Positions 1 through 50,100 of a stretch of 64,000 bases of DNA are shown here, piece by piece; position 1 is the first letter of the stretch; each line of letters starts with the position of its first letter. Both the position numbers and the translations under genes were made by a program. A model generated the notes under the pieces. It did not search any database. It was not told where the DNA came from and saw only the letters and a program-made list of their open reading frames with translations. This DNA is from Cristatella mucedo (Eukaryota; Bryozoa; Phylactolaemata; Cristatellidae): contig WPIO01000002.1 of NCBI GenBank assembly GCA_009760855.2, positions 4,930,001-4,994,000 on the forward strand. The letters are read 5' to 3'.

Positions 1-18
1 ATAAAGAAAGGAAATTAC

Positions 19-291
19 TTATATGTAAAAGTGATTAGTTTTTTGTTTTTTGATCATCGAATATTTGATGAAATTTATCAAATACAGTGGTATATTTTTT
101 TCTTTCTTTTTCATTTTATCATATGCATCACAAACATCTAAAAGAACCCACATTTTTGGTGCAGGTATTTTAAACATATACTTATAAAAATCTGTAGGGA
201 TATATGGTGTGTCATCCTCAAAACCACAAAACTTTTTAGCAATTCTTACAGCATATTCACAACAAAGAATTCTTGAAACTTTTTGATTCAT
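19..291 (-). CDS. Small virus-like ORF, paralogue A of a four-member tandem family
   Basis: A 90-residue ORF with an ATG start that I do not recognise. It is the only member of the local family with an unbroken frame. Near the N-terminus it has a VSRILCCEYAVRIAKK segment, and in the middle a LLDVCDAYDKMKKKEK segment. Both recur in the three degenerate neighbours to its right. A TATA-like palindrome (295-305) sits 3 nt before the ATG. The protein is lysine-rich and predicted soluble, with no signal peptide or membrane segment seen. Its place beside a protein-primed DNA polymerase suggests an element-encoded accessory protein; the function is unknown. Confidence 0.6.
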   Translation of the reverse strand: MNQKVSRILCCEYAVRIAKKFCGFEDDTPYIPTDFYKYMFKIPAPKMWVLLDVCDAYDKMKKKEKNIPLYLINFIKYSMIKKQKTNHFYI

Positions 292-294
292 CTT

Positions 295-305
295 CCTATA
301 TAAGG
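295..305 (-). promoter_or_regulatory. TATA-like palindromic motif directly before ORF A
   Basis: On the coding strand this reads CCTTATATAGG and ends 3 nt before the ATG at 291. The same motif, exact or diverged, stands at the same distance before at least five other ORFs of this block. Such short spacing does not fit a cellular TATA box, which lies about 30 bp before the transcription start. A virus-type initiator or late promoter is a better guess. Confidence 0.55.
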
Positions 306-306
306 T

Positions 307-586
307 TTAAATATTTGATTTAATAGAATCTAATTTTCTATTCTCATATATTTTCGTAGCCTCAGCTTCTAATTTAATTGTAGATTTATCAATAGTTTCA
401 TACTGATCAGTAATCTCAAGAAGCGTGTCAATAAATAATGGGTCTGCTTTTTTAAAGTTGATAAGATTTGCATCTAAATTCATATTCAGGTCTACAACCT
501 CCTAATAGACGTGAACAAACTGAAAATATAATATTACGTGCAACATAATGTCCAAGAACCTTTTCAAACTTTTCATCAAAATTTAT
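307..586 (-). pseudogene. Degenerate small ORF, paralogue B
   Basis: This is a broken relative of ORF A. The motif at 589-599 is followed at 586 by ATA where the other copies have ATG, so the start codon seems lost. Reading on from there gives an N-terminal segment like that of A (VLGHYVARNII against ILCCEYAVRIA). A frame change near 490 is needed to reach the C-terminal half, which contains LLEITDQYETIDK, matching LLDVCDAYDKMKK of A. The stop is at 307-309, immediately before the promoter motif of A, so the units are packed head to tail. Confidence 0.5.
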
Positions 587-588
587 TT

Positions 589-599
589 CCTATATAAGG
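589..599 (-). promoter_or_regulatory. TATA-like palindromic motif before paralogue B
   Basis: This is an exact second copy of CCTTATATAGG on the coding strand. It lies 2 nt before the degenerate start triplet of paralogue B. Confidence 0.5.
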
Positions 600-611
600 T
601 TTAAGAATTGT

Positions 612-849
612 TTAATTCATTTTTTTCAATTCTTCAACTTCTTTATTTACTACACGAAAAATGTCATCCTTTATCTCACTGTAAATATCGCAAACGTGTA
701 AAAGACAATCAATAGTTTTTCTATCTAACTCTCTTTTAAACCTATTAAAACTTGTACACCCACGTTTTTCACAATGTTCAAAAAAATCTCTAAGAATTTT
801 TGTTTGCTTCATCACACTTAAAAAATTTTGATAATTCACTTTTCTCCAT
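612..849 (-). pseudogene. Degenerate small ORF, paralogue C
   Basis: The frame from the ATG at 849 stops after about 19 codons. A second frame from about 830 to 612 carries the rest, including LLHVCDIYSEIKDD, which aligns with LLDVCDAYDKMKKK of ORF A. One small indel near the run of T at about 797 would explain the split. A diverged copy of the shared motif (coding strand TTTATAAAGGAA) abuts the ATG. It is the same family as A, B and D; the function is unknown. Confidence 0.5.
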
Positions 850-874
850 TTCCTTTATAAAACTAAAGACTTAT

Positions 875-1159
875 TTAATAGAAATTATTAATTTGTACAC
901 CTTGCCTAGTTTTTGGGGTTTTTGATTTCTTTGCGGCTTCTTCAAGCATTTCATTTATCTTACCTCTACATTCCATTAGTTTATCAGAAGCTTCACACAT
1001 TTCTATAAGAACACTAACAAACGAACTGTCTAAATCTGGAATAATTTTATCAAGAGAGTGTCTAATTATACGTTAATCATTTCCTTTTAGTTTTTGAAGA
1101 CAGATCTTTACAGCCATATCTCTAGATTGTTCACAGCTTAAAATTCTTGAGACGTCCAT
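875..1159 (-). pseudogene. Degenerate small ORF, paralogue D
   Basis: It begins at an ATG (1159) with MDVSRILSCEQSRDMAVK, the closest match to the N-terminus of ORF A (VSRILCCEYAVRIAKK). A stop at about 1075 interrupts it. The other frame continues with LIEMCEASDKLMECRGK, again matching LLDVCDAYDK of A, and ends in a lysine-rich tail with a stop at 875-877. The motif at 1161-1171 lies 1 nt before the start. One frameshift separates the halves. Confidence 0.5.
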
Positions 1160-1160
1160 T

Positions 1161-1171
1161 TCTATATAAGT
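1161..1171 (-). promoter_or_regulatory. TATA-like motif before paralogue D
   Basis: The coding strand reads ACTTATATAGA followed by AATG. It is a one- or two-base variant of the CCTTATATAGG motif, at the same position relative to the start codon. Confidence 0.45.
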
Positions 1172-1182
1172 ATAAATATTTT

Positions 1183-1423
1183 TTATAATTCATTTTCTTC
1201 ATTTACATAATCACTTCGAAATGGAGGTATACCATCAGCTTCAGTGTAAAAAGTAGTCATCTTCAGCGGTTTCAAACCCAGATTCGGATTCGGATTCGGA
1301 TTCAGATTCAGGTATATAATCAGGATCTTCGGATTCTGTATCTGATGTTGACTCCGTATCTGAAATACTTATATCCATAGAGCTTTCTTCAACTTTTAAA
1401 AACTCTGGATTTTCGTTTTTCAT
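1183..1423 (-). pseudogene. Acidic Ser/Glu/Asp-rich small ORF, probably frameshifted
   Basis: An ATG at 1423 opens a 60-codon frame dominated by acidic and serine residues, including an SESESESES run encoded by a short GATTCG repeat at about 1281-1310. The frame stops at 1241. The neighbouring frame continues without a stop to 1183 with a plausible C-terminus (PPFRSDYVNEENEL), so one indel near 1255 is likely. A weak version of the shared motif (TTATTATAGAA) precedes the ATG. The function is unknown; acidic tails occur in many DNA-virus proteins, but nothing here identifies it. Confidence 0.4.
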
Positions 1424-1439
1424 TTCTATAATAATGAAA

Positions 1440-1589
1440 TTATTTTGTTAATATACTTTTCTTAATTGTTTTGACTTCTTTTTCTCCAAACCATTTTGCT
1501 CTTGGTTCTTCCCATTCTCTTTCATTATCAACAGGTTTTATTTTACTCACAACTTCTTCTTTTTTGCTTTCAATCTTTCGTTTAGGCAT
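1440..1589 (-). CDS. Basic 49-residue ORF overlapping the polymerase stop
   Basis: This short ORF begins MPKRKIESKKEE and is strongly basic, with 14 lysines among 49 residues and a nuclear-localisation-like PKRK. Its ATG (1587-1589) lies inside the last codons of the polymerase frame, whose stop is at 1582-1584, so the two overlap by 8 nt in different frames. Such overlap is common in compact viral or Polinton genomes. No family is recognised. It is too short for certainty, but the codon content fits its neighbours. Confidence 0.4.
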   Translation of the reverse strand: MPKRKIESKKEEVVSKIKPVDNEREWEEPRAKWFGEKEVKTIKKSILTK

Positions 1590-4500
1590 TTATACTAGTA
1601 TTAGAAAAACATTTAATACATTTTCCACCAATCTCTTCTATTCTATAATGACCGTAAGAGTAACTATGAATTCCACGATCTAACCAATAACGCTTTGATT
1701 CGAATGATGATAGTGCAACTTTTTCCATCTCACTAGTAAATCATTCGTGTTTATCTTGAGATATTTTATGAAACTTTCTAATTTGATTTTCACCAAACTT
1801 CTCATTTGTTTTACCTTAAAATATTTCTATACTATCATGTAAACAGCTAGCAAATACATTATGCCCCATGGTTTTAGATAAAACCGCTTTCGTTACTCCT
1901 TTTGCAGCAGCTTTTCTTTCAGCATCAACAATACTTACAGAGTATAGCTTTGGTCTTAAAGCACATACTTCTGAAATTACTTTCCCTTCTGCTTCATCTT
2001 TAAAATTACCAATTGATTTATCATCAAAATAATCAGGCATTGCTTTCATATCATCATAGATGTTAGGTGTTTCAATATTCATGATTAAAGAGTCAGTATC
2101 AGTGTAGATTAAACTAACCTTGTCATCATATTTCTTTTTTATAACATCATAATAAAACTTTTGCATGTGTAACTTTGATAAATCTAGAATTGCGCTACCG
2201 ATAAATATTGGTTTATTTAATCTTGTTTTAGATTGATTCATTTGAAATATTGTCAACGATTTTCCAAAGTCTCTAAAGTTAACCATATTTGGGTCTCTTA
2301 TTCGTTTATTGAATTTCTGTTTTCCTACTTCATCAATTGTACTAACCAAATAAGTTTTACCTTTTTTTCAACATCTTCACAAGTTTTTCCATAGAATGAA
2401 TTCATTATAAGTTTCCAAAGGTTTCTTAAAAACTTTTTACTTGAATTCAACGCTTTCATTTCAGCACACATTTCAATATAAGGTTTAAGCCATCTAGATT
2501 GATTAAACTTGAAAAATTTCTTTACATCACAAACCATTCCGTGTGTTAAACAGAAATTTAAATATCTATAATGTAGAAGATAATCCTTTTTTGGTTTAAA
2601 TTCACACATTAACTTTGGAATATTACTTGCTTCTGTTTTGAACTTATATTGAAAATCTGAGTATTCATCACAACTAACAACTCTATTAGAAGCACATAAT
2701 GGATATTCATTGTGTAAGTCATGATAATATTCCTTAGTCTTTGGATCGTACTCAATATCAACAACAAAGAAGTAACCTGTGTCAGATTCGTCTTCTAACT
2801 TAAGAATGCTATCAATATTCCATCCTTCACTTGAAACTTCAACAATGTTCCCTTGTGGAAGAAGCTCTATCATTGCTGTAGGATATAGACTTGTTGCATC
2901 TTGATAAGTTATCCATGTTGTTGGTTTATCCTTATCATAATCAGGAACTAATGGATTATTTGCCTTAACAAGTCTACTACTAACCTGACATATTTCTCCA
3001 CGAATAGATTTTGTTAACATGTCATAATTCTCTCAATCAGACAATAACTCAATCTTTACTCCTGAAAACCAGAATACTGCATTCCATGAGAAGTTTGGTG
3101 TTGTTACAAAGTTTGCAGGATCTAATTTTAGTTTTGATACCAAACCTTTTCTAAAACTTTCGAAACAATCAGCAAGTAATAAGACGTCTATTTGAAGATA
3201 TAAATTATGATATTCTAACATATTTTTACAATCAAACTCTTTCCAAACATCAGTTGCTTTTTTATAACTTTCATCGGATATATCAGTCATGTAAACGCTT
3301 GAATAAAAATCATCTTTACTTGGAAGAGATGAAGTGAAAAACTTCTCAAAAGAATCCATGAACTCGTAAGGATATTCTCCTTTAGTTGTTAGCATATTAA
3401 GGTTTTTATTTGGATAAAGTTCACTTAAAACTTTGTTAGATTTTACCCATTGTTGATGCAATAAAGCTTAATGACCCAAGCATAAATTGTGCACTATCCT
3501 TAAAAACAATATCTTTAACCCTTAACATCATATACTTCTGAAGATTATTAGCTATCGGTTGTGCTTCAACACTAAAATTTTAAAGAGCTTTAACAAATAT
3601 ATGTGATTCATATCCTCTAAAGTTGTGAAATATAACAGGAAGTTGCCATCTTCTAAAGTTAACTCCAGCTTTTAAGTTACAAATATGGTGCGCTGGGCCT
3701 CTGTATTTATTTGTTAGATGACAGTGATCGTGGACTTTTCTCAAATCACTTACTTTTGAATTGAATGGCTCTTTACACATCCAACAGAATAAAGCATTTT
3801 CATATTCATCATATTCACTTTCAGTTAAACTATCCATTCTACTTTCTCCACTATGTTCAATCAATGTGCTTTTCAAAAAATCTGATAATTCAAATAATCT
3901 TCGAAGAAACTTAACAACACAATCAGATCCAACATTAATAAACCTATCAAAAACTTCACCCTTCCAATCAACTATGATAAAAGCAGCTGAACATGGTGTG
4001 TGTGTTGAAGAATGTTCTTGTTTTTTAATTATACACTCAAAATCTGCATAACAAACGTATGGGCATGTATTAAGATGTTTGAAAGAATCAAACTTAATAA
4101 ATTTAATATCACCATGTGGCATTAGATAAACAGTATTTCCAGAGTTCATACTTTCACATATTTCTAAATGATTAGCTACTTGTTTTTTATCAAAGAATCT
4201 ATTTAAGCATCTATGACAATAATACTGTCTTCCTCCAGAGTTTGGTGGTCTACATAATGAATTAAAACTACTAATCAACATATAATGTTCTTTTTTACCT
4301 TTAACAACTAGCAAAAGATTTACATGTCTACCTTCTTTTTCATCTGATTTTTGTACAACTCTCAGTGGTGAAACCCTTGATTCTTTATACCCACACGAGT
4401 AAACATGTATACTAACATTCATTGCTTTCAATAATTTATTAACGTCTTTAACCATTAAAGGCCATTCAATTTCATTAAGAATATTAGAGTGATTGATAGC

Positions 4501-5183
4501 TAATATTGTTTTTAAGTCGTTTATTTTCCACTTATTTCTTTCTACTGGGTTTAGAGATCTTAAAACACACCACAATGCACAAAACTCATCATTAAGATTT
4601 TTTAAATTAATTACACACTTTTTCTTAACAAGATATTCAGGTGTTTCAATGTATGTGCCGCCGCTTAGTGGTATGTATTTAGAAATAACAACAGAGAATG
4701 AATAATAACCAATAAATAACCATCCAGAACCAACATTTTTCTCTACTAACATCTCAGAATTAGTTCCTAAAGAAAGCATTACTTTTTCATATATTGAGTT
4801 AGATGGTTCACTATCCATCGTTAACATTGATTTTGATTGTGCTCCTTTTTTTCTATGTCTCCATTATTAAACATTCTCATGTCGAATGATATTTTAAAAT
4901 GAACTCTAACAAACCTCCATGAACTTCTAACTCTGTTAAGTAATTCATTTGTTTGATATCTAAGAGACTCTTTAAGTGACTCAAAGTCTGCATATGTTCT
5001 TTTTGTTTTATAAGAAAAAGTTAAAGTATTTCCATTAGCAGAAACAACAGGTTCAATGAAACCAACTTTGTTTAGTCTTCCTTTTTTTCCAAAGTATTTT
5101 CTACTTGATGGTTTGAAATCAATGTTCATTAACCTTCTAGATTCAAAAGGGAAATAATTTCTTTGGCTTATTCGAGAAGACAT
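1582..5183 (-). pseudogene. Protein-primed family B DNA polymerase (Polinton/adintovirus type), frameshifted
   Basis: These are fragments of one polymerase, in order on the minus strand: 5183-4821, 4827-3580, 3579-3462 (read by eye), 3461-3033, 3020-2325, 2349-1816 and a tail to 1582. The fragment at 4827-3580 has the conserved GSGWLF...PLSGGTY region, a zinc-finger-like C204/C207/H220/C224, exonuclease motif I (DFE, 262-264), an endonuclease VII-like zinc cluster (C348/C351, HDHCH 366-370, C383) and exonuclease motif II (HNFRGYESH). The next pieces carry exonuclease motif III (YLQIDVLLLAD), polymerase motif A (DATSLYP), motif B (MNSFYGK) and motif C (YTDTDSL). The tail has the family ending SKRYWLDRGIHSYSYGHYRI, with an in-frame TGA at 1741-1743. 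Catalytic residues survive, but at least five frame changes and one stop break the gene. No fragment alone could be active. Confidence 0.9.
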
Positions 5184-5185
5184 TT

Positions 5186-5196
5186 GCTATATAAGG
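5186..5196 (-). promoter_or_regulatory. TATA-like motif before the polymerase
   Basis: The coding strand reads CCTTATATAGC, 2 nt before the polymerase ATG at 5183. It is a single-base variant of the motif before the small ORFs, which ties the polymerase and the small-ORF array into one element. Confidence 0.5.
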
Positions 5197-5231: not shown

Positions 5232-5350
5232 TAGTGATGATAGAATTTTTCCTTTTGCGGTATCGGGAAATTTTTTGACAACCGATGGTGAAACCGAGGC
5301 TGGAGAAAAATTTGACGATGTCGTAAAAGGGAAAATTCCTATCATCACCT
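5232..5350 (+). other. Imperfect inverted repeat / RNA hairpin candidate
   Basis: The arms at about 5232-5287 and 5294-5350 are roughly 75% complementary around a short loop. The outermost 30 bp match best, with GTGATGATAG at the left and its complement at the right. Five of the differences between the arms are transitions that still pair as G-U on the plus strand, against one or two that do not. It may be a folded RNA, a foldback element, or the decayed end of the neighbouring virus-like element. Confidence 0.45.
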
Positions 5351-5415: not shown

Positions 5416-5516
5416 GCTAGAACTTCACAGGACTATAAACATTAAAAAAAGTTGTTCAAAGGCTGGCTAGAACTTCACAGGACTATAAACATAAAAAAAG
5501 AGTTGTTCAAAGGCTG
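5416..5516. repeat. Two-copy tandem duplication, 50-bp unit
   Basis: The unit starting GCTAGAACTTCACAGG is present at 5416-5465 and again at 5466-5516, nearly identical apart from small differences in the A-run. It looks recent. No coding role is seen. Confidence 0.85.
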
Positions 5517-8434
5517 ACCGGCCATGGCATTCCAGCCGCTTGCAGTCTCGGCACTGCGACCCCTTTTCTGTCGCAGAAAGTTATGCCTCCGCGTGGACCA
5601 GCTGAGTTGTCGTATTGAAAAGTTGCCAGAGCAAGCGTGACCAACCGGAAGTCGCACTGTAATTGCCTTTGCTTAGCGATGGACATCCGCAAGTATAATC
5701 TGCCACTGATTCTTCACGGGGGCTTGCTATATAGTTGATGTCCATTAAATCTGGTCAGCACGTCTGTTCGTTTCGTACACGCAACTCAATGCTGATTCCC
5801 TTCCCCAGTGCTGAAAAATAAACTTCATGCAATTTTTCTATGCTCATTTTACGATAAAAATCTAAAAGAAAATTTTGAAATACTATTCAATTTTTTTCTC
5901 CGATACAGATTTCTGTCTATTTACTAAACCGGTTAGCAGTCATTGAATCAGGCTCACCAGATAAGTCAGAGGACACTGAGGCCTGCCTTCCATATCTGAA
6001 CTGGGAGTTGCTCGTGATTTCTCACGGTCCAGGCTAAGCTCCATGTAATAATAATAATAATACATTTGATAAAGCGCCCTTGGAGAACTCAATCTTTCTC
6101 TAGGCACTTAACATGTAAAACCCGCGGTTTCCGCCTGCCACTATCGGCCGGCGAGTTTTCGCAGCAATGGATTGGTAACAAAAGAATTAAAGCCAGCAGG
6201 ATTTGAGCGTACCTATCGTAGACAAAAAGGAGAAAAACATGCAACAAGGGTTATCACTCAGTGTCACACTTCCGAAACTCGACAGAAACTTCGCATGCAA
6301 AACACTCAACAGTAAGAGATTGACGAAGAAGCCCCAGCAGCTTCGTTCTGCGTGAGGTCAGCGAACGCTTCACTATAATAAATATTGAACAGAGAAAGAT
6401 ACTGAACGCCAGAGTCGAGCGCTTCACGAACCAGGTCATGGTATGGAATCCTTGCTCAACAGTAGGCCGGGTTTAACAGCAGGGCTAGATTTACCACTGG
6501 GTCAGCGGACACTGAGGCCTACATTTTAATGCATTGCTGATATTTCCCGTGATTTTTCACGGCCATAAGCTGGTTACATAATAAACGCATCGCAATTACA
6601 CGACCGTCCAGAATCGTATCCGCAAGCATTTATTAGTCAACGAAGTGACCACGGTAGTTGTATTGCCTTAGAATGCAATACAAATAAATTTCGTTAAATG
6701 CAATGCAATTTCAGTTAAATAGTTCCTCTTTATTTTCACCCAACAGAGCAGTAAGGCTGCTTCTTTTGTCGCCCTTCGTGACCCGCTATGGCCTGTCGTT
6801 GCTGGCGTGACGGCGACATTGGTGCAGCATGACAACCGAGTCGTTTCGCTTTTTCTGCTTCCGTCTCGTGGGCAGCGTTGTTAGCAGCGTTCGGGTATGC
6901 TGGGAGTGGCGTGATAGCATTTAACGCACCTGGAAATGGATCTAATGTGTCATCCGTGCGAGTTCTATATTTGCACTGCTGTGCTCTTCGTGTTCACCGG
7001 TTTTTTTTTAATTCTTGGTGCTATATCTTCCTCTGTGGGAAATAGAGCCGAATTATTTGCTGCAAATGCATTATCTGAGCTGAGAACCTAATCTAGTCGT
7101 TCCACTATTAGACATTTAGTATGAACCACAATTTATTTTATGTGTACTTAGTTAATGTTCGACTGGCTGCGAATTAATCGCGAACTTTAAATTCGCAGCC
7201 AGTACTTGCCACAAGGGCAGCAGTCATTAGATCGTGCGTTAGAGCGTTTTCTTTTCGAAGCTTCTTTTTTGCACACGAGGACAGTAAAACGCCGCTGTAA
7301 TGCAAGGAAGGAATCTGGAAAATATTCATGTCTAATTTATAATTTAAAATCAACCAATTTTCCCGTCGTACTTGAAGGGCTGACAGTTATTTATTGAGAC
7401 GTACAGTAAGAGTAGGCTTAGGAATGCATTTTGCCCAGACCGTGGGGAGATACATGAAACCCTAGGGGGAAATACTAACAAAGACATCGAAGATAAGCCA
7501 AGAATTATCGGCAAATCCTCAGTGAGTGGAGCTCGCCAGAAGAGGGGCAGAGAAATGGTTATCGGGTGAACGCCGGCTGATCTGTACCAACGACGAATCA
7601 GAAATTCGTAAAATGGTCCGACGACTTTCGTCCGCAGGGTCGGTCTAGATGAGCCTTAACACTCATGCAGACAATCAATGGCGCCACAGACCGTCGTCTT
7701 GTTTCCGTACTCGTAGCAGTGTCACCAGCGCGTCAGGATTGGGGCGATCCTGACCAGATCGGTCGTAGGATGGAGGCTCAGCCCCGGGGTCTCAATTCTT
7801 TCCAAGACTAGTATAGCACAGTCAGTCCCAGCGGGCCAAGGTAAATGAGGCGAAGCTCGCACACGCTCTATTTCCCTTCTCTTACTGAACATTGACACTC
7901 AGTATTAGAGGGCAATTGTTGCCTTCATTTATTGTTGAGTTCTACCCTGACCGTGTGTAGAAGCGTTGTCCCGATATTCCACCTCAGAGGCGCAGTGCTT
8001 CAACTGACTGACAGCACCTTCGGGGCCCTTCTGTTTTTACCTTCGCGACCATCCCCTGCCTGGTTAGCGGTTACAGATGGTTCAAGTAGCTTATGCTGCA
8101 GCGACGAGCAACATTGTGCTGAGGAAGTACATGTGAGCTCTGCGTGACAGTGCTGCACGCATGCCAACAAGTTGCCGAACAAGTATTCCGAAAGTTGTCA
8201 CCGAACTTGGTGGGTTATCCGTCTCGATGGTTATCTCAGCTCATCGGTGCAGCGTAAGCCGTAGGACGGGCGTTTAATCACCGGTGGAATTTCAACGCTG
8301 GCCCGTCATTCCGTAAGCATCACCTCAGCACCAGCACGAGCAGAGGTGCCCCGACATTTGACAAGTTGGGCTCTGGCTGCAGGCTTTTGGTATCGCTGCC
8401 TGTACCCTGGCAACTAAAAGCTCAGAGAGCGAGT

Positions 8435-10743: not shown

Positions 10744-11733
<990 letters not shown>

Positions 11734-11757
11734 GCAGCTTCGTCGTTATTCACAAAC

Positions 11758-11773
11758 GGTCCTTTTCAGGACC
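11758..11773 (+). terminator. Histone 3' stem-loop of H4
   Basis: GGTCCTTTTCAGGACC is followed by ACCCA, the textbook six-base-pair stem and TTTC loop. It has the same stem sequence as the H2A stem-loop and differs from those of H3 and H2B. Confidence 0.95.
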
Positions 11774-12730
11774 ACCCACTCATTCGTCAGATTATCTTGC
11801 GTTGGCAATAATAACATTAGCTGAAGTCGCGGTAGTTCAGTGGCAACCACCTATTATTTCAACTAACTCGTCATGCGCAGGTTTGCGACTGAAACCGTTG
11901 ATGAGCAAGGATTCCAAGTTGTACTTGTCAAATGTGTCGTACTCCGGTTGACCCTAAATAGTCAATATCCTGATGTGGGCTAGATTGTCGGTAAGCAACT
12001 TTAGCTTGACCTCTAATCAGTTGTCGCAATATGTGTTCATGATAAAGCATCGCCGTTATTCTCAAGATCGCTTGCTCAACCTGCAGGCTAACTGCATGGA
12101 TCTGTTAAAGCTATAATATCAAGCGGCGAAAGGCAGCCTGTTTGTTACTGCATAATCACTAGGGTGTTAAGTACACCAGTTCACCTGACTTAGTGGAGTT
12201 ACTTTGAGTATAGTATTAGCGCCTACCTAAACCTAGGCTGGAGGCCGGCAAACTCTGGACTTGGGGCCAGATCCGGCCTAGTGGCCCCCTAGCTATTTGT
12301 CAATGGATCCGTAGCCTAATTGAGTTGTCGCGGTTTTCTCTCCGTTATACAGATACTTTGACTTACGAGTATCCCAACTAATGAATTTTAAAGGCCCGAG
12401 GCGTCTCTCGGCGCTTTTTGCATTGAGTTGAGATCTAACTGATATTGCGCTTGATTTTGCGTTTTTTTCATAATTTTCGTGTTTAGCAGTATGATATTAA
12501 AACTGACTTGGCTCTTCGAACGGTTAGCGGCAGCAGCCCGTAGCCGGGGCGGATTTGCGCCAGAAAGCCTTTATGAGGCATGTAAGAGGGTGGAGGGAGG
12601 AACAGCGGTGGTTATTCGTACCCGTAAGGAAAGGGCAGCCGAAGACCGACTCGTGCAAGTTAAGACGACTGCGGCCGGAACCGCTGCAGTATTTTACTTT
12701 ACAGGTACTTTGACCAAGGGTCGGCAAACC
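11774..12730. other. Spacer after H4
   Basis: No gene or histone H1 was seen. A tRNA-like string near 11829-11895 (GGTAGTTCAGTGG) lacks a proper T-arm. The rest is unstructured by eye. Confidence 0.4.
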
Positions 12731-12732
12731 GG

Positions 12733-12757
12733 CCTTTAGGCCAGCCACGGTCGAGCT

Positions 12758-12795
<38 letters not shown>

Positions 12796-12853
12796 CAATT
12801 GTATAGCACCCCAAGAGAACTTTATTAAAGCACTTCACACATATGTATAGCAC

Positions 12854-12888
<35 letters not shown>

Positions 12889-12917
12889 TACTAGCTCGAC
12901 AGTGTCTGGCCTAAAGG
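12733..12917. repeat. 31-bp inverted repeat around (TA)n and a SINE tail
   Basis: The arms at 12733-12763 and 12887-12917 are 31 bp each with 29 positions complementary (CCTTTAGGCCAG...GTCGAGCTAGTACT). Both are followed inward by (TA)n tracts, and the centre carries a SINE family B tail (GAATTATA to AGCACTT, minus strand) at 12790-12840. It could be a small MITE that captured or was entered by a SINE, or a fold-back rearrangement. Confidence 0.65.
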
Positions 12918-12945
12918 TAATTAAATTTGATATACATATATTTAA

Positions 12946-13018
12946 TTCAATTGTATAGCACCCCAAGAGAACTTTATTACAGCACTCCTTAACCACGGGA
13001 CCAAACCAGCTGGGCTTC
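12946..13018 (-). mobile_element. SINE family B, internally deleted
   Basis: On the minus strand the head (CTGGTTTGGTCCCGTGGTTAAGG) is joined directly to the tail (AATAAAGTTCTCTTGGGGTG...CAATTGAATTAA). The box B region is missing. It is a near-duplicate of the tail inside the adjacent inverted repeat. Confidence 0.7.
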
Positions 13019-13492
13019 TAGCCTAACGCCCCCCTAGTTAGTTATTGATGGATCCGGCCTAATTGAATTGTCGCTGTTTTGTTTCCCTTCATTACTGCAG
13101 GCTGCTGCTTAAGCTGTGGCCTGTTTATTTTTTATAACTGACGCCAGGTGCTTGTATAATAAAGCAGTAGCACCTGACCAGAGAGAGAGAGAGAGAGATG
13201 ATGAATGTCTACCCCACTATAATTACACACATATCGTGTGCGTTCGTTGTGACTGTTTGTGCCTCCAACCATGCCCATGCGACCCACTTATACAAGCTAG
13301 TGTGCCTTCTTGACCTCTAGCCTAGTGTGCCTTCTTGACCTCCTGAAATAGCCCAGTAGTCCAAAAAGTTTGCCGATCTCTGCTCTAAGCGATAGATGCA
13401 CTTGATCACCTTATTGATGAAACAGGCATACACGGCAGTAAATCGGTGTAAGCACTAACCTAAGCCGTGACTGCCAATCGTAGCTAATTTAT

Positions 13493-13905
13493 GGTAATAA
13501 TAATAATAATGCACTTGATAAAGCGCCCTCAGAGAGCTTAATCTCTCTCTAGGCGCTTTACATTTGCTGCCAAGTGAAATGCAATTGAATGGTAAGTAAA
13601 ATCATGCTTGAAAAACAAACAAAATGAATAATATGGTTAGGGGTGACATGCACTGGGTCAGCATGCAAGTGTGGTTAGTGGCAGCATGCAGTGTCAGCAC
13701 GCATAAGCACATCAAGGACGAATCACAGGGACCCACTAAATGCTGTCCTAAATAGGTGTTTTTAAGTTCCTTTTAAATGTGGTCAGGTCAGGGAATGTTC
13801 TGACGCAGGTTGGGAGTTCCAGGCTTTGGGAGCATACGAACTAAATGCACGGTCTCCAGAGGATTTAAGGTTTGTACGAGGTATTTCTAGACAGTCGGAT
13901 TCTGA
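13493..13905 (-). mobile_element. CR1/L2-like LINE, 5'-truncated
   Basis: It begins on the plus strand with (AAT)n and the tail GCACTTGATAAAGCGCCCTC. The reverse of the 3' UTR (GGTTAGGGGTGACATGCAC) follows, then the last codons of the reverse-transcriptase ORF (FKRNLK-type ending, AWNSQ). The sequence is more than 85% like the 47.2-kb copy by eye. It lies between the two histone pairs. Confidence 0.85.
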
Positions 13906-13967
13906 AAAGCAATGGTAGCTTCAAGGGAGCCAAGCGAACCTAAGTCACATCGTTTCCAGGTGTCCTG

Positions 13968-14142
13968 AGCTTCTAGCTACTTCCACGGTATCCACTACCT
14001 CAACTGCCCCTCCGACTTAGCAGTGCTTCTTACTTTCTCCTTGTTTCTAGCTACCCAAGGCATACCGAAAGCCGCTTAGGCTTCGAGTGTACGATATGTA
14101 CTCATATTCTTGTGTGGCTTTGTGGAGTTACAGACGGCGAGA
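13968..14142 (+). mobile_element. Short repeat family C, copy 1
   Basis: It is a roughly 175-bp element with the core CATACCGAAAGCCGCTTAGG and the end TTTGTGGAGTTACAGACGG. It matches 30423-30633, and its 3' end matches 38668-38700 in reverse. It has no coding capacity. The class is unknown; it may be a SINE 3' part or a non-autonomous DNA element. Confidence 0.6.
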
Positions 14143-14310
14143 TAATAATAATAATATTGCTCTTGATAAAGCGCCCTTGGAGAACTTAATCTCTTTCTAG
14201 GCGCTTTACATTTACTGCAAAGTGACATGCAATAGAATATTAAGTAAAATCATGCTTGAAAAACAAACAAAACGAATAATATGGTAAGGGGTGACAGATG
14301 GATGCACACA
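14143..14310 (-). mobile_element. LINE 3' UTR and tail fragment
   Basis: It contains AAT repeats, the tail CTTGATAAAGCGCCCTTGG and 3' UTR down to ATATGGTAAGGGGTGACAG. It is the same family as the 13.5-kb copy but independently truncated, directly after repeat family C. Confidence 0.8.
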
Positions 14311-14871
14311 CACATCATTCGACAGGCCATCGCAGTAACGGTTTAGGGCCTACCTCAGGTGAGTAATTCTAGGTACTAATGCCGAAAGGTATTTCGTTGA
14401 ACTTTTCAAGTAAAGGAGAAAGTTGGTGCAATACTACCACTAGGCTTGTCTAAAGAGTGCACTGTTGACAAGCCGCACTGCGGCCTGCCGCGTTACACCA
14501 CACTTCACCTACCAAAGCTGGCTTCCCAAATAGCAGTGTGTAGACTACTAGGTTGTTGTCATTAGGTATTAGGTTGTCACTTGCTCCAGACCCGTACATT
14601 ACTACTCCTACCTATTTACTTATGCTAGGCGTCGCACCAGCAGCCAGGCCGATTCGCGCCGTAGGAACTGCAATCACCAACCTACCCATCACTCCAAAGC
14701 CAACTAAAAGCCTGGTATTCGACCGACTGACGTCATTGACCCCCACATACACTATCAATTGCTGAAAACTGACAATACAGTACTCGAGAGATCAGCATCG
14801 AGCTTCATGTGTTAAAGTCACTTGTGAAAGTAGTTTTCACAGAGAACCAATTACTCAATAGCGAGATTGGT

Positions 14872-14887
14872 GGTCCTGAAAAGGACC
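14872..14887 (-). terminator. Histone 3' stem-loop of H2A
   Basis: The minus strand reads GGTCCTTTTCAGGACC followed by ACCA. It is identical in stem and loop to that of H4 and lies 25 nt after the H2A stop. Confidence 0.95.
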
Positions 14888-14912
14888 GTTTGATTTCGAG
14901 GCGATGCATCAA

Positions 14913-15305
14913 TTAAGCCGACTTGGCTGCTGCAGCAGGCTTGTCCGACTTCTTGGGCAGAAGCACGGCCTGGATGTTGGGCAGCACACCGCCCTGCGCT
15001 ATCGTCACGCCCGCCAGCAGCTTGTTCAGCTCCTCGTCGTTGCGCACGGCCAGCTGCAGGTGACGCGGCACGATTCTCGTCTTCTTGTTGTCGCGCGCCG
15101 CGTTGCCGGCCAGCTCCAGCACCTCGGCCGCCAAATACTCCATCACGGCCGCCAGGTACACGGGCGCTCCGGCTCCCACGCGCTCCGCGTAGTTACCCTT
15201 GCGCAGCAGCCTGTGAATTCTGCCGACCGGAAACTGCAGTCCGGCGCGCGACGACCTCGACTTGGACTTGCCAGCCGCCTTGCCACCCTTGCCACGACCT
15301 GTCAT
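14913..15305 (-). CDS. H2A: Histone H2A
   Basis: Intronless, 130 codons, with the signature [15 protein letters not shown], the acidic-patch helix and the docking domain ending VLLPKK. It dimerises with H2B. Differences from most animal H2A: threonine after the first Met (MTGRG), [12 protein letters not shown] rather than [17 protein letters not shown] rather than RIIPRHLQLAI, and an Ala-rich tail ([11 protein letters not shown]) without an SQ motif. So it is the core form and not H2A.X. It is divergently paired with H2B, 250 bp apart. Confidence 0.98.
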
Positions 15306-15930
<625 letters not shown>

Positions 15931-30283: not shown

Positions 30284-31640
30284 AATAATAAGAATAAAAA
30301 TAATGTACTTGATAAAGCGCCCTCAGAGAACTCAATCTCTTTCTAGGCGCTTTATATTTGCTGCAAAGGGAAACGCGATTGAATCGTGAGTTGAATCATG
30401 CTTGATAAACAACATGAATGACTTCTATGCTACTCACTACCTCAAATACTCTCCTGACTCTGCTATGCTTCCCACTTTCTCTTTGTTTCGTGAGACGAAG
30501 TCTGTTGGGTACCGAATGCGTACCGAAAGCCGCTTAGGCTGTGAGTTCGCTATACAAAACTCTCCTGCGTAACACCCACATGGTCTTTATGACTTTGTGG
30601 AGTTACTGACGGAGATACATTACACTACATTACAATGACATGGTTAGGGGTGACATGCACAGGGTCACCATGCAAGTCAAGGTTAGTGGCAGCATGCACA
30701 GTGTCAGCACGCATAACCACATCAAGGACGAACCACAGGGACCCACTAAATGCTGTCCTAAATAGGTGTATTTTCAAGTTCTTTTTAAATGTGGTCAAGT
30801 CTGGGGATGTTCTGACGCAAATCGGGAGGGAGTTCCAGGCTTTGGGATCATACGAACTAAATGCACGGTCTCCATAAGATTTGAGGTTTGTACGAGGTAT
30901 TGGTAAACTATTGGATTCCGAAAAGCAGGTGGTACGATGCTTGGCCTGGTGGGGGAGTAGATCTGAGAGATAGGCTGGAGCCAAAGAATGAAGTGACCTA
31001 AAAGTGATTGACAAAACCTTGAATTTGATCCATTGCTTGACTGGGAGCCAATGCAGATCGGGAGAAGTGGTGTAATGTGGCAACTGCGACACGACAGACA
31101 AGCCTAGCTGCAGAGTTTTGCACCAGCTGTAATCAATCGCCTGATTGCACATACCGGTAGGCCAGCAAGCAGTGAGTTGCAGAAGTCAAGACAGTATGTC
31201 ACAAATGCATGGACCAACTTACATGTGGTATCCTTATCTAAACAAGCCCGATTTTTAGCAATGTTATGTAGCTGAAAGTAGGCAGACTTGATTGTGGAGC
31301 TGATGTGGTCGTCTAACGAGAGGTCACTTTGGAACATGACACCTAGATTTCGAGCTGATTCAACAGGAGATATGCTGGCAGAGCCAATTTTGAGTTTCAG
31401 CCTTTCCAATTTCTGAACCACACTGGGTTTGCCCATAACCAGTAAGTTTGTTTTATCATCGTTTAGTTTTAGAAAATTTGCCGCCATCGATGTGCGAATT
31501 CCATCGATACGTGCAGCAAGTGAGTTGAGAGAATTCGAGGTGCTCGAAGGCTGGGAGGGATCAAAGCAAAGGTACAACTGAGTGTCATCCGGATAGAAGT
31601 GAAACCCTAGATTGTGCACTTTACAATCAAATAAGCGTTG
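30284..31640 (-). mobile_element. CR1/L2-like LINE, 5'-truncated, interrupted once
   Basis: It runs from the AAT-rich end (30284) and tail through the 3' UTR, then the reverse-transcriptase ORF (30640-31620) up to the catalytic region. That region reads FYPDDTQLYLCFDPSQ, with proline replacing alanine in the usual FYADD box. Two overlapping frames (30625-31152 and 31104-31619) show one frameshift near 31130. Repeat family C is inserted at 30423-30633. Confidence 0.85.
30423..30633 (+). mobile_element. Repeat family C, copy 2, with target-site duplication
   Basis: It interrupts the 3' UTR of a LINE whose uninterrupted form is known from other copies (AACATGAAT...ATGGTTAGGGG). AATGAC occurs at both edges (30417-30422 and 30634-30639), a 6-bp duplication. 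The core GCGTACCGAAAGCCGCTTAGG and the end TTTGTGGAGTTACTGACGG match the copy at 13968-14142. Confidence 0.7.
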
Positions 31641-44100: not shown

Positions 44101-47100
44101 TTGGTCAGTAGTGTGCCCTTAGCAAACTTTTATAACTGTATTGCGCCTAGCCTTTTTCTGTGTTTTTATGTTCAACGTTTTTTTAACTAGTTGCATTGTC
44201 GTAGGCACAGTGTCATCTTAGCTTGTGCTTTGCACACTAACTCATCTTCATTCATAGTGTACCAGCATACCTGTGGAACCTGTTAGGGTTCTCCCGGTTT
44301 CAAGCCAGAAATATTCCGTGGGCCGTGATGGCACACTGGGTAAGGTGGTTGCTTTTCACGACCTTGCTGTCGAGGTCGTGGGTTCGAATCCTGCAGTGGG
44401 TGATTCTTTATTGCCGCTGCAAGCTGTGGTGATAGCCGTAAAAGCTCTTCTATCGCTATGCAAAAGAGGCTGTTCAATCAGCTAGTATTTTTTTAGTATG
44501 TGCAAAGTGCATTGACTGGTGAGTATTTTGCAGATGAGGGAAAAGTGAAAGAGGTAGTACGAACTATAAGGTCATGCAGCATTCGTCGTGTGATTGATCA
44601 TCGGCACCTGGATCCGAGTCTTGTAAAAGCCAACCGGCGGTGCTCTTTTTCCCTCTACTAGTGCTAAGTTTGCTGAAGACCAGAAATGGGAAAACTGCTC
44701 TTCCGATTTTGAACCACAGTCTGATTTAGTCCCCCCCCCAGCCAGCGATCTTAGCTTGTCGATCTGGCTATTTTTACTTTTAAGCTTTGTGACTGCGACA
44801 ACCGACTGCTGGTAGCAGGGTAGGGCACCATCACTCTTCTGTCAGAGCTGTTCAGACTCACCTGCTGTTGCTGGCATCTAGCCGTATAAGCAGCTAGCGT
44901 GCTGCCACAAACAGTAGCTAATGCATTTCACCTCTGAAGCTTGCTACTTGCTCATTTTGCTCCCCAAGCATCACTTGCGCACATGCTCGGCACACTCCAA
45001 GCTATGAGAGCAGAGTATGCTGGTTCTAGGTGTTTCTAGGTCAGTTTGATGTCTTCCTAAATGCCTCGCCGCCTGCATTGTTTAACCAGCTACAGCAACT
45101 TGTATGTTTCTTTTTGTCGACCATTTGCATTGACTGCATGCCGGTAGTGCACTGCACCAGCGACAGGTTTCTCAATCATATTCAGGCGTTCGAGTCGGCT
45201 CTTAAGGAAGAGGACTTGCTGCAGGCAGAGCTTACGAAGGAACAGGATCAGGCCATCGAATCGGCTATGATGGAGGAGGCCAGCTATCTGGAGGAGATCA
45301 AGCGGGCCGAGCAGGCACTCAGCCTTGATGCCACTGATGCTGAGCTCATGGTATGAATGCAGGCTGGTCACATGCCCTCCTTGCTTTCTGGTCGTGGCTC
45401 GTGTGTGCGTTATGCCTAGGTACCAGTAGTTGAGCCAGCCCATTTGGGATTGACCTGCTATCAGCTTTATGGCTGCTGCCAGGTAGCATTTTATGAGATT
45501 TTATGAATTCAGGGTGAGGCAGAGTAAACTTCATCCTAAGAACTCTGTTGACCATCATTTTCTTTGTTGTACAATAGTCATGCTTGGTTGCACTGACAAT
45601 GGTTACATCAGGTGCTTGAGCCTGATTATCCGATTGACCGAGGTGGGGCCAATAGGCCGATAGGCTGCCTTCAGTAGATGACTGCAGCTGTGGTGCTGCC
45701 CAATATCTCTCCCCGAATGCCTGACCCATCGTCACCAACGTGCCCACCTCCTCGTTACCAGCTGCTGATGGAATTGCTGGTAGGTGCTATTTGTTGCCCG
45801 GCCGAGTGCCCATCATTTCTCTCTGTACCTGCATTCATCACCAACCGGTTGCCACTTGTTTCGGTCCGAATTCCTTGTTAAACCTGATTTGGCAGAGCAC
45901 CCTTGCTGCCACGCATTGGCCAATGCTTGTGGTGGCAAGTGCTGCTTTGCTGTTGGTCACGGCTCGCTTGCACACTCACGGCTGCATCGGCCATCCGGCT
46001 CGAGCTTGTGCTGCATTATCGATCTTGGCAGCAGGCTTGATCACGCCTGTTGGGTTGAAGGTGACAGTGGCGTGTCGTTTGTGCTTGCCCTCATTTTGTT
46101 GCTGCGGATTCGAGTGCATGCATCTCCTCACTGGTGAGCCCAGTTGCATTCTACAAATACCGATAATCTTGGAGAGATTTCTCCATGTCTTTCTTTTGGT
46201 AGCCATAACTTGGCAAATGCTTCATATGAGCTCTAACGTCCCCAGTCGTGCTGCAAGTTTTGCAGCTGTTACTGTAGCTAAAGGCGCTTCTCTGAAGTCC
46301 GTCTTTGTTAAGTCCACTGCTTCCTGTGTGCCTATAGAAGTAATTTTGCCTGATTTCACAGTGCTTACATTAACGAATGCTTAGTTTGCAGCTTTTGCAC
46401 AAGTTTTCGTTCGCATCCTCGGATGCTCTAGACATGCTTTGCTCTGGCTGCTGCATGCAACCTGCACAAAGTAAGGATTGTGGTTGCTTGGTTTCACAAA
46501 TATGGCAACTGGTAACTGACAGATCAATGCCTCCATCTGTCCCTCTCTCTTGCACTCCCTACCTCTCACCGATTCTTCTTTCTCTCTTCTTCCCTCACTC
46601 CTCCCTCCCTCTACATCTCTCACTCTGACCACTCTCTGTCACCCTCCCTCCCTCTCTTGCCTTCCTGCTCTCCATTAGCTGCTCTCTCTCACTCTCTCAC
46701 TGGTAGCACTCTTAACTCATTTAACTGCTAGAAGTGCCACCTTTTCCCGGGGATTTGCAGTTGGCGGGATGGCATTCAGAGGTGAGGTGCCCACCAAGTT
46801 TAGGGGTGCCAACATCCTGCTTCTCACACTACCAACGTTGCTTATGGGCTTTGCTTCCAGACGGGTGCAAACTCTGCAGATGCCGACTCGCTGGGCACGT
46901 CTCAAGAGTCGCAGGCGCTTGACTGGGATACGATGGTGGCCAACTATGAGGCGGAACATGAGAAAAAGAAAGCGCTCGGCTTGACCTGGGGCGACATGGT
47001 CGACGATGCCGAGCCGGGATCTCGCACACCTGGCCGTGGTGCTCATCTGCACGAGAAACTCTCGTCGCCGTCAAGGAAGAGGTGAGGCCGAGGGGAAAGG

Positions 47101-50100
47101 ACAGACTCGAGTTTGGCACCGAATTATGACGGCGGGCTGCAAAGTTTTGCATTGTGGTTGTCATGGCCGCTCTGTGTGTCTTATGCCACAGACACTGGAA
47201 CGGGTCGTGGCGGACCAGCTGAGCTCATATATTGAAACTTCAAACCTTGCTAGTAAGTTCCAGTCTGGCTTTAGAGCTAATCACTCTACAGAATCCGCAT
47301 TGCTTAGGGTGTACAACGACCTACTTAAAAATGCAGAAATAGGTAGAGTGTCTCTGCTTGTTTGGCTCGATCTTTCGGCAGCTCTTGATACTATCGATCA
47401 CAAAGTTCTTCTAGAGTGCCTCTCATCTCGCCTAGGCATCACTGGCACTGCTCTGCAATGGTTCAGGTCCAATCTCAATGGGAGACTCCAGAGTATTGGC
47501 GTGAATGGACAAAGATCATCCGAGGTACCTCTGAAATATGGGGTACCTCTGGGCTCCGTGCTAGGTCCGGTTCTTTTCACGGTTTATACTCTCCCTCTTG
47601 CTGATGTAATTGCCAAGCACAATCTAGGCTTTCACTTTTATGCGGATGACACTCAGTTGTACCTTTGCTTTGATCCCTCCCAGCCTTCGAGCACCTCGAA
47701 TTTTCTGAACTCACTTGCTGCAAGCATTGATGACATCTGCACCTGGATGGCAGCAAATTTTCTAAAACTTAACGATGATAAAACTAACTTACTAGTTATG
47801 GGCAAACCCAGTGTGATCCAGAGATTGGAAGGGCTGATGCTCAAAATTGGCTCTGCCAGCATATCTCCTGTCGAATCAGCTCGAAATCAAGGTGTCATGT
47901 TCCAAAGTGACCTCTCGTTAGACGACCACATCAGCTCCACAATCAAGTCTGCCTACTTTCAGCTACATAACATTGCTAAAATTCGGGCTTGTTTAGATAA
48001 GGATACCACGTGTAAGTTGGTCCATGCATTCGTGACATCCCATCTGGACTTCTGTAACTCACTGCTTGCTGGCCTACCGGTATGTGCAATCAGGCGCTTA
48101 CTGCTGGTGCAAAACTCTGCAGCTAGGCTTGTCTGTCGTGAGCGTCGCAGTTGCCACATCACACCACTTCTCGCCGACCTGCACTGGCTACCAGTCAAGC
48201 AATGGGTCGACTTTGAGGTTTTGTCGCTCACTTTTAGGTCACTTCATTCTTTGGCTCCAGCCTATCTCTCAGATTTACACCCCCACCAGGCCAAGCATCG
48301 TACCACCCGCTTTTCGGAATCCAACAGTTCACCACTACCTCGTACAAACCTCAAATCCTTTGGAAACCGTGCATTTAGTTCGTATGCTCTCAAAGCCTGG
48401 AACTCCCTCCTGACTTGCGTCAGAACATCCCCTGACTTGACTACATTTAAAAAGAACTTAAAAACACCTATTTAGGACAGCATTTAGTGGGTCCCTGTGA
48501 TTCGTCTTTCATGTGCCTATGCGTGCTGACACTGTGCATGCTGCCACTAACCACACTTGCATGGTGACCCTGTGCATGTCACCCCTAACCATGTCATTCA
48601 TGTCACCCCTAACCATGTCATTCATGATCAGGCATGATATTACTCACGATTCAATCGCGTTTCCCTTTGCAGCAAATGTAAAGCGCCTAGAAAGAGATTG
48701 AGTTCTCCGATGGCGCTTTATCAAGTGCGTTATCATTATTATTATTATTATATGCCGCTAAGCTGCTGGTGCACTGGTTGTGTTCACATTGATGGCTCTG
48801 TGCAGGATCACTGAGGGCACTCAAGTGTGTGATTGCGATTTCCCCCTGCTCTACGGGTAGCTGCTATAGGCTGCAAAGGCAAGCATGCAGCTGAATACCG
48901 TTTGCTCGTGGCCGCCGTGCTCCGTTGTATGCGCCGGTGTTACTATGCCTCAGGTGCCTGCTGTCACTGCTCTCGTCTGTGGCATGACACAACAGGCTTT
49001 GGCTTACGAACAAAAAGGGGTCACGTGCACGACAGTCAGAGGCAGCTTAGAGGAGTTGAAACAACCATTTTTTCCTGAGCCATCACCTATGGCTGTGAAT
49101 ACGAGCCTACGACAGTTGCTTAAAATCACGCCAGCCCAAGTCATTGCGGTGCTTCCTCTGAGCGCCATTGGCTCGTGTGATTCGCCTAGTTGTCACAGCA
49201 GAGCCAGCAGCTAGTGAACACTGTAGAGCTAGAGTCCTACGCACGCCCTGCCGCATTTTGCTTATGCCTCCTCCTGGCTCGCCATTCTCCAGGTCCATCA
49301 CCGAGTCGAAGCGGCGTTACGAAGAGAGACAGGAGAAAGCACGTGAGCTGCGTGAAAAGTTCCACAGTGAGAAGACTGAGCGACTGAAGGAACTCTTCAG
49401 AAAGGTTGGCCAATAAGCAGCTGCGTGTTGGTGCAGTCGTGGTGAAAGCCGGCGGCAGTCGGTTGCTGTCTACTGCCTCGCTGTCTACTGCCTCGCTGTC
49501 TACTGTCTCGCTGTCTACTGCCTGGCTGTCTACTGCCTGGCTGTCTACTGCCTGGCTGTCTACTGCCTGGCTGTCTACTGCCTAGCTGACTACTGCCTAG
49601 CTGTCTACTGCCTAGTTATCTACTCCCTCGATCACCGGTGTACGGCTTGACGAGTGGGTGGATTGGTGGGGAGGGGGTTGAGTAGTGACATCATTGCCCT
49701 TTGCTGCCGTGTTTGCTCACCACCACCACCTGCTGCCACAGGATGACCGAGCATGACCCCGGAGCATGGCACGCCACGTGACACCGTGCATTGGCGGCTT
49801 TCTTGTGCAGGTCGAGGAGGTGCGCGCCTGGAAGGAGGAACTGCTGCAGCAGAGGCGCTTGTCGATGGAGTGCAAGCTACAGAGTGCAGAGGCGAAGCGC
49901 AGCCAGCAGCTGCGCCTCAAGGTCAAGAAAGCTCACGAGGAGGACAACAAGGTAGTGTGCCCCAGAGATGGGCTCGCGTGGCTGATACAGCTACAGGTGC
50001 TGCAGTGACGCAGCTCGTGATCAGTGCTGGCAGCACCTGATGTCGCCCTCCTTTGGCCACATGTCGCTCGGGCTGCAGCTTTTGTGTCCTGCTTATTTCC

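Follow-up and report, generated by a model that had tools for sequence, protein, structure and literature searches.

A tandem gene array of variable length in integrated polinton/adintovirus-like elements of the bryozoan Cristatella mucedo

Genes and features of the locus

The DNA analysed, hereafter the window, is a stretch of 64,000 nucleotides from Cristatella mucedo. Its first 5347 bases belong to the terminal part of an integrated, AT-rich element; G+C content is 29-30% in positions 1-4000, whereas the 2-kb bins past position 6000 have 42-59%. All recognisable element genes in the window are on the minus strand, in the order of a broken DNA polymerase gene (PolB), a small basic open reading frame, an acidic Ser-Glu gene and then four small units, D, C, B and A (Table 1).

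Table 1. Features of the element end in the window
Feature	Position	Strand	Remarks
Unit A (class U1), 90 aa, 3'-most	19..291	-	sole intact unit frame in window
CTTATATAG box	296..304	-	just upstream of unit A
Unit B (class U3-like)	310..589	-	start codon missing at expected place; two frames
CTTATATAG box	590..598	-	upstream of unit B
Unit C	612..870 (start approximate)	-	two frames; by eye like class U10
Unit D (class U2-like), 5'-most	878..1159	-	one in-frame stop
CTTATATAG box	1162..1170	-	upstream of unit D
Acidic Ser-Glu repeat gene E	1241..1423	-	between PolB and array; present in 34/40 fetched loci
Small basic ORF F	1443..1589	-	no Pfam match
PolB remains, at least 5 separate pieces	1585..5183	-	DNA_pol_B_2 and weak Endonuclease_7 matches
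CTTATATAG box	5187..5195	-	upstream of PolB
Terminal foldback hairpin	5234..5347	.	z -7.9; element stops at 5347 (..ATCA-3'), followed by other DNA

The Pfam profile PF03175 matches PolB at 2325-3020 (E 3.8e-6, 26.5 bits against a cut-off of 25.8), and a second piece scores 22.5 bits, under this cut-off. The polymerase is of family B and, as read from its sequence, of the protein-primed type, in support of the virus-like neighbourhood that the original prediction had assigned to the units. The piece at 3583-4827, which has 46 relatives, aligns with them where we take an OTU-like domain to lie; Pfam gave no OTU match in the window PolB pieces. An N-terminal OTU-like domain of PolB is included in the polinton/adintovirus definition in PMC11071296.

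Forty stretches of the same genome were read, consisting of 39 other copies (L011-L049) and the left neighbour of the window (L010). PolB C-terminal regions are present in 36 of these loci, and Down1, a conserved gene beyond unit A, in 38. The repeat number of gene E differs from copy to copy. Stretches of four copies (L010, L050, L051 and L068) hold further genes, with fibre-like repeats seen by eye, a PLA2-like domain (E 2.9e-4, under its own cut-off), a DUF5679 match (4.5e-6) and a weak Adeno_PX match (0.0086). Two further weak matches came from comparison with the IMG/VR record IMGVR_UViG_3300028392_002905 (L001): its integrase with L010 (26% over 129 aa, E 2.3e-5) and its ATPase with L051 and L068 (52-54% over 24-25 aa, E 0.004). 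The ATPase-like reading frame of L051 had no Pfam match, and the MCP candidate of L001 matched nothing in the fetched stretches, which cover the elements partially.

Beyond the element end, a 34-nt direct repeat is seen in two copies at 5416-5499, with starts 50 nt apart. The window furthermore contains a host histone cluster at 10744-15930, with divergent H3/H4 and H2A/H2B gene pairs, and reverse-transcriptase-like reading frames of the LINE type at 31104-31619 (minus strand) and 47006-48475 (plus strand), presumably resembling CR1/L2.

Element ends

The terminal 164 bases, as far as window position 5347, are found at full length in at least 40 places including the window copy (49 alignments, with 40 of 144 candidates scored), and the matches end at query bases 163-173, mostly at 164. 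A strong hairpin, set within an inverted terminal repeat, is formed by the terminal 115 bases in all four copies folded; for the window, none of 200 shuffles gave a hairpin as strong. Five inverted pairs of ends bound insertions of 20.9, 22.4, 23.0, 18.7 and 13.9 kb. All five elements start with TG, end with CA and have 5-bp direct repeats outside, the target duplications being AACAG, AGGCA, CTCTC, CACCG and CCCCC, of which the third and the fifth lie in low-complexity flanks. The element is polinton/adintovirus-like and integrating.

A family of paralogous units

The relatedness of the four units was assessed with an iterative profile built from other genomic copies, the window and its neighbour L010 being left out of training. 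Among 37 window pieces, this profile recovered A with an E-value of 1.6e-33, D in two pieces (1.1e-13 and 2.4e-11), B in two pieces (1.5e-8 and 4.9e-8) and C at 615-854 (2.2e-6), the best value among 200 x 37 = 7400 shuffled pieces being 1.8e-4; the N-terminal piece of C, at 0.079, was not significant with the profile. Judging by sequence likeness, A to D are true paralogues, as the original prediction had held, and chance resemblance is ruled out by the recovery of pieces of all four with a window-free profile. Pairwise comparison within the window, which had been named as a possible refutation, gave a mixed outcome in shuffling tests. The A-D pair is clear (Smith-Waterman score 69, reached in 0 of 4000 shuffles in either direction, with D read with X at its stop), as is A-C (p 0.0057 and 0.0045); D-C and C-B are borderline (p 0.035-0.050), and A-B (p 0.10-0.63) and D-B are not significant.

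The reading frames were in part as first described. It is true that A alone is intact and that C is split over two frames. B indeed has no start codon where one is expected, and its split over two frames had escaped notice; D had been thought to need a frame change and is instead one frame with a single in-frame stop. Within its family, the copy in the window is atypical and decayed.

The unit domain spans about 64 residues, and its core, RIL...L(D)...LLxxCDxxD, is conserved. The original prediction did not recognise the family, and we found no significant database match either. With 51 family members against Pfam, the best E-value was 0.0062, for one member, and no Pfam family was matched by more than two; one unit-B piece reached 7.5e-4 and 19.8 bits with PF22709, under the 27-bit cut-off. 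The best value was 0.88 in a PDB profile search of the unit family and 0.021 for the unit domain in PHROGs. A search of 5.8 billion proteins, which needs shared words, gave no match for A or for a five-row alignment, and single-protein scans of IMG/VR, which catch close relatives only, gave none for A or for a D unit. A host cellular gene as the identity of A was rejected, there being no match in Pfam or the protein searches. No such array was found in any other record searched, and none is described in the literature searched, the coverage of which lies mostly outside subscription journals. The unit domain appears to be a new protein family, without a significant relative at the sensitivities used.

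Structure predictions for the units are all-helical and of low confidence (pLDDT 61.7 and 63.5). A possible likeness of the core to the death fold or the F-box was dismissed, as a PDB profile search up to an E-value of 10 listed no such chain; metal binding through the conserved Cys residues was likewise rejected, since class U3 is without several of them.

Layout of the arrays

A search of the same 572-Mb genome with unit A gave at least 146 matches at E <= 1e-3, a lower bound (150 of 384 candidates scored) that includes matches to its paralogues; the matches lie in at least 83 loci on 62 contigs. The array sits between PolB and the acidic gene on one side and the conserved Down1 on the other. 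The genes that follow A leftward are Down1 to Down3, and the additional units for which the original prediction proposed a look on this side did not turn up: in 4.8 kb of L010 the profile has one match, A itself.

In the 39 other copies, the positions within the array are occupied by particular classes. The first unit is D (U2) in 32, broken in 4 and another unit in 3; the last is A (U1) in 32, U10 in 3, broken in 2 and another in 2; the last but one is B (U3) in 19, broken in 10, U9 in 3 and another in 7. The commonest array reads D, then 0, 1 or 2 inner pairs, then B and A. Mean amino acid identity within a class is 90% for U2 and 86% for U1 (36 sequences, with A of the window counted twice), 61% for U3 and 59-79% for the inner classes U4-U9.

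The number of units differs among relatives, from 2 to 8, as in a gene accordion, and amplification, as predicted, is thereby supported. There are 3 units in 14 arrays, 5 in 8, 7 in 9, 4 in 3, 6 in 3, 8 in 1 and 2 in 1, when broken matches are merged under our own rule. Consequently, 31 of the 39 arrays have 3, 5 or 7 units and 8 have other counts; odd counts exceed even ones with p 3e-4, not corrected for relatedness, and the counts of L015 and L030 are odd solely through an extra U10 after A (and, in L015, a U16 before D). Array length changes mostly by two units. Inner pairs can also be fused: of the 26 inner pairs that arrays with 5 or 7 units contain, 9 share a single open frame, most commonly with U6 or U5 ahead of U4, and the two U8-U7 pairs are not in one frame. 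Two full domains are kept in 8 reading frames from 7 loci, the fully read ones having about 167-210 aa.

Two polymerase lineages and reassortment

Two PolB lineages adjoin the same array. They are 39-51% identical in amino acids over the C-terminal region, and the median nucleotide identity of this region is 95% within lineages and 58% between them; a few outliers (0.52 within, 0.95 between) suggest that some labels are doubtful, that of L045 coming from a 46% match and that of L038 from a 32-aa match. No such split was seen in E, D, A, Down1 or Down2. Down1 is 93.1% identical between the lineages and 93.5% and 93.4% within them, and in a tree built from the Down1 genes of 30 copies, 10 changes of PolB label are needed, against 10.2 when labels are shuffled (296 of 500 shuffles as low). 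Reassortment between PolB and the remainder of the element is free, which implies that elements often recombine with one another and, in turn, that several of them co-occur in one cell.

It could be imagined that the inner units act between elements, blocking related elements in the same cell or protecting against them, with variants rising as PolB lineages and arrays mix. The free recombination of many related copies in one genome, with PolB at 58% as against 95% and Down1 at 93%, is in line with such weapons or immunity, but arrays of 3, 5 and 7 units are found in both PolB lineages, and we consider this explanation improbable.

Two further observations concern the lineages. By eye, the tail of the window PolB at 1585-1740 is like the second lineage (L026) and the body is nearer to the first; a candidate breakpoint near these positions is suggested. 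L028 (G000:C332:695500-700000) belongs to a third, distant lineage, with a D-type first unit and the rest different, a Down1 that is 64% identical and a PolB that is about 30-35% identical to the others.

A shared upstream box

The box CTTATATAG occurs four times in the window, each time on the element coding strand, and not in the other 58.6 kb. In the other copies, most separately started units have TATATAG ahead of their ATG, mostly by 9-16 nt. Within 45 nt of the ATG, it is found for U1 in 25 of 32 (without the window copy), U2 in 22 of 31, U3 in 13 of 19, U5 in 11 of 12, U6 in 5 of 5, U8 in 2 of 3 and U9 in 3 of 3. Down1 has it in 29 of 33 copies within the same distance and Down2 in 24 of 30 within 50 nt. 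As a background, 260 of 4626 sense ATGs, true starts included, and 9 of 2347 antisense ATGs have the motif within 45 nt. It is absent before the second halves of fused pairs (U4, 0/10), gene E (0/28), Down3 (0/11), U7 (0/3), U10 (0/2) and the single units U12, U14 and U16; among other element reading frames, 2 of 14 starts have it within 20 nt, both of them fibre-like.

The box, common to PolB and Down1, together with the position of the units, suggests that they are expressed with the replication genes. As a rival explanation, the units might be accessory proteins of replication or packaging, that is, DNA-binding helical proteins amplified for dosage. That the array adjoins PolB and, in the window, carries the same upstream box as PolB fits this idea; however, units that diverge to 59-79% identity within the inner classes, and the 14 copies with just 3 units, speak against it, and it seems very improbable. 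Dosage alone, one of the two forms of selection that the original prediction put forward, is a poor fit to added units that have diverged in this way.

Selection and decay

The other proposed form of selection, diversification, finds partial support. Under five codon models, omega is 0.23-0.49 for U1 and 0.20-0.33 for U2, as compared with 0.73-1.84 for U3, 0.70-2.50 for U4long, 0.59-2.73 for U4short and 0.38-1.39 for U5. The end units A and D are constrained, and B and the inner units are at higher omega, exceeding U1 under the same model by 1.6-5.5-fold in every model. Because absolute values depend strongly on the treatment of base composition, the claim is limited to this higher omega: with GY+F3X4, omega is 0.73 for U3, 0.70 for U4long, 0.59 for U4short and 0.38 for U5. 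An omega above 1 in the inner units is model-dependent, hinging on this treatment, and positive selection is not proven. By NG86, the ratio of summed dN to summed dS is 1.75 for U4, 1.46 for U6, 1.39 for U7 and 2.25 for U10, and 0.97 for U5, 0.94 for U8, 0.89 for U3 and 0.79 for U9. Strong positive selection, as these values might indicate, was rejected, because the U4 estimate by maximum likelihood under F3X4 is 0.59-1.10, and higher values arise only under F1X4 or equal frequencies.

The NG86 ratio is 0.18 for Down1 and Down2 and 0.25 for E, from which it follows that the elements evolved as functional units; U1 and U2 are also within 0.18-0.25, PolB has 0.39 and 0.26, and Down3 has 0.45. 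Within U4long, 10 core codons have an omega of 0.13-0.20 and the remainder 0.98-1.90 in four models; the F3X4 core-column values for U1, U2, U3, U4short and U5 are exactly 1.000, not estimated, and were not used.

In the 31 arrays with 3, 5 or 7 units, counted by position, 10 of 52 inner units and 8 of 31 B units are broken, as against 3 of 62 D and A units (inner units versus ends, p 0.02); the loci had been selected by a match to A, which biases toward an intact A and not toward an intact D. This higher rate of breakage, like the model dependence of omega above 1, detracts from diversification and is what would be expected if the array were a by-product, with unequal recombination multiplying a dispensable gene, weakly constrained inner units drifting and only D and A being of importance. 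Several models give an inner omega near or under 1, and the 14 arrays of just 3 units are also consistent with relaxation. On the other hand, the motif core of U4long is held at low omega, two full open domains are retained in the 8 fused frames, and boxes are kept ahead of U5 and U6 in 16 of 17 cases. Taken together, we regard relaxation as rather unlikely.

A possible role of the array

We favour an array that behaves like an accordion and in which the inner proteins diversify against a factor of the host or of a rival, and give this reading a probability of about one half; we observe the anatomy and infer the target. The units would be expressed together with the replication genes, early expression being read from the shared box. 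Since the ends are constant and the middle changes, a fixed partner is suggested for D and A and a changing one for the inner units. The conserved end units may thus meet a constant partner, and inner proteins, gained and lost through unequal recombination, may diversify against a changing one, most likely an intracellular host antiviral factor. Host antiviral factors are common partners of tandem viral genes. The array would work like a viral gene accordion in which the core is shared by all members and the surfaces differ from one to the next.

A more ambitious reading, which is possible and put forward tentatively, is that the previously undescribed domain forms a modular, expandable, receptor-like array and a diversity-generating antagonist system, with constant ends and paired variable units. 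It also takes in the promoter box that most units have of their own and the reassortment with two PolB lineages, and it places the array in a population of integrating DNA viruses with hairpin ends.

Polinton and adintovirus elements are common in animal genomes and, to our knowledge, little is known about how they handle host or rival defences. The constancy of the ends, the variability of the middle and the preference for one step in copy number point to a gene family with a target within experimental reach, and at least 83 loci in one genome provide statistical power for tests of selection. A middle that changes faster than the ends is often seen in genes that contest a host or a rival.

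Comparison with known systems

As in vertebrate Mavericks/Polintons and adintoviruses (Eupolintoviridae), the element has a DNA_pol_B_2 PolB with an Endonuclease_7-like stretch, inverted termini, a target duplication, a PLA2-like domain (here below cut-off) and ATPase- and integrase-like matches, which are weak here. It differs from them in its terminal hairpins and in the unit array. For vertebrate Mavericks, PMC8097293 reports 6-bp target duplications and AG/CT end motifs; all five elements depart from this with 5-bp duplications and TG..CA ends.

The 17.4-kb contig L001 carries a PolB with about 30% identity in the compared piece, together with a Pox_A32 ATPase and an rve integrase. No match to the unit profile was seen in 15.4 kb of it (284 pieces, best E 0.86), and the TATATA-rich stretches ahead of its ATGs differ from the box of the Cristatella mucedo element. 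In Mavirus-like endogenous virophages too, putative promoter motifs lie upstream of genes in integrated elements, according to the passages available of PMC8547959; the motif differs from TATATAG, and these passages do not mention an array.

An analogy may be drawn with the gene accordions of poxviruses. In K3L arrays, as described in PMC6115191, recombination alters the tandem copy number of a gene that faces host defence, and recombination would likewise alter the number of tandem units here. In the poxvirus accordion, a variant sweeps through the amplified copies, whereas the units of the Cristatella mucedo element have diverged, are position-specific and mostly change in number by steps of two.
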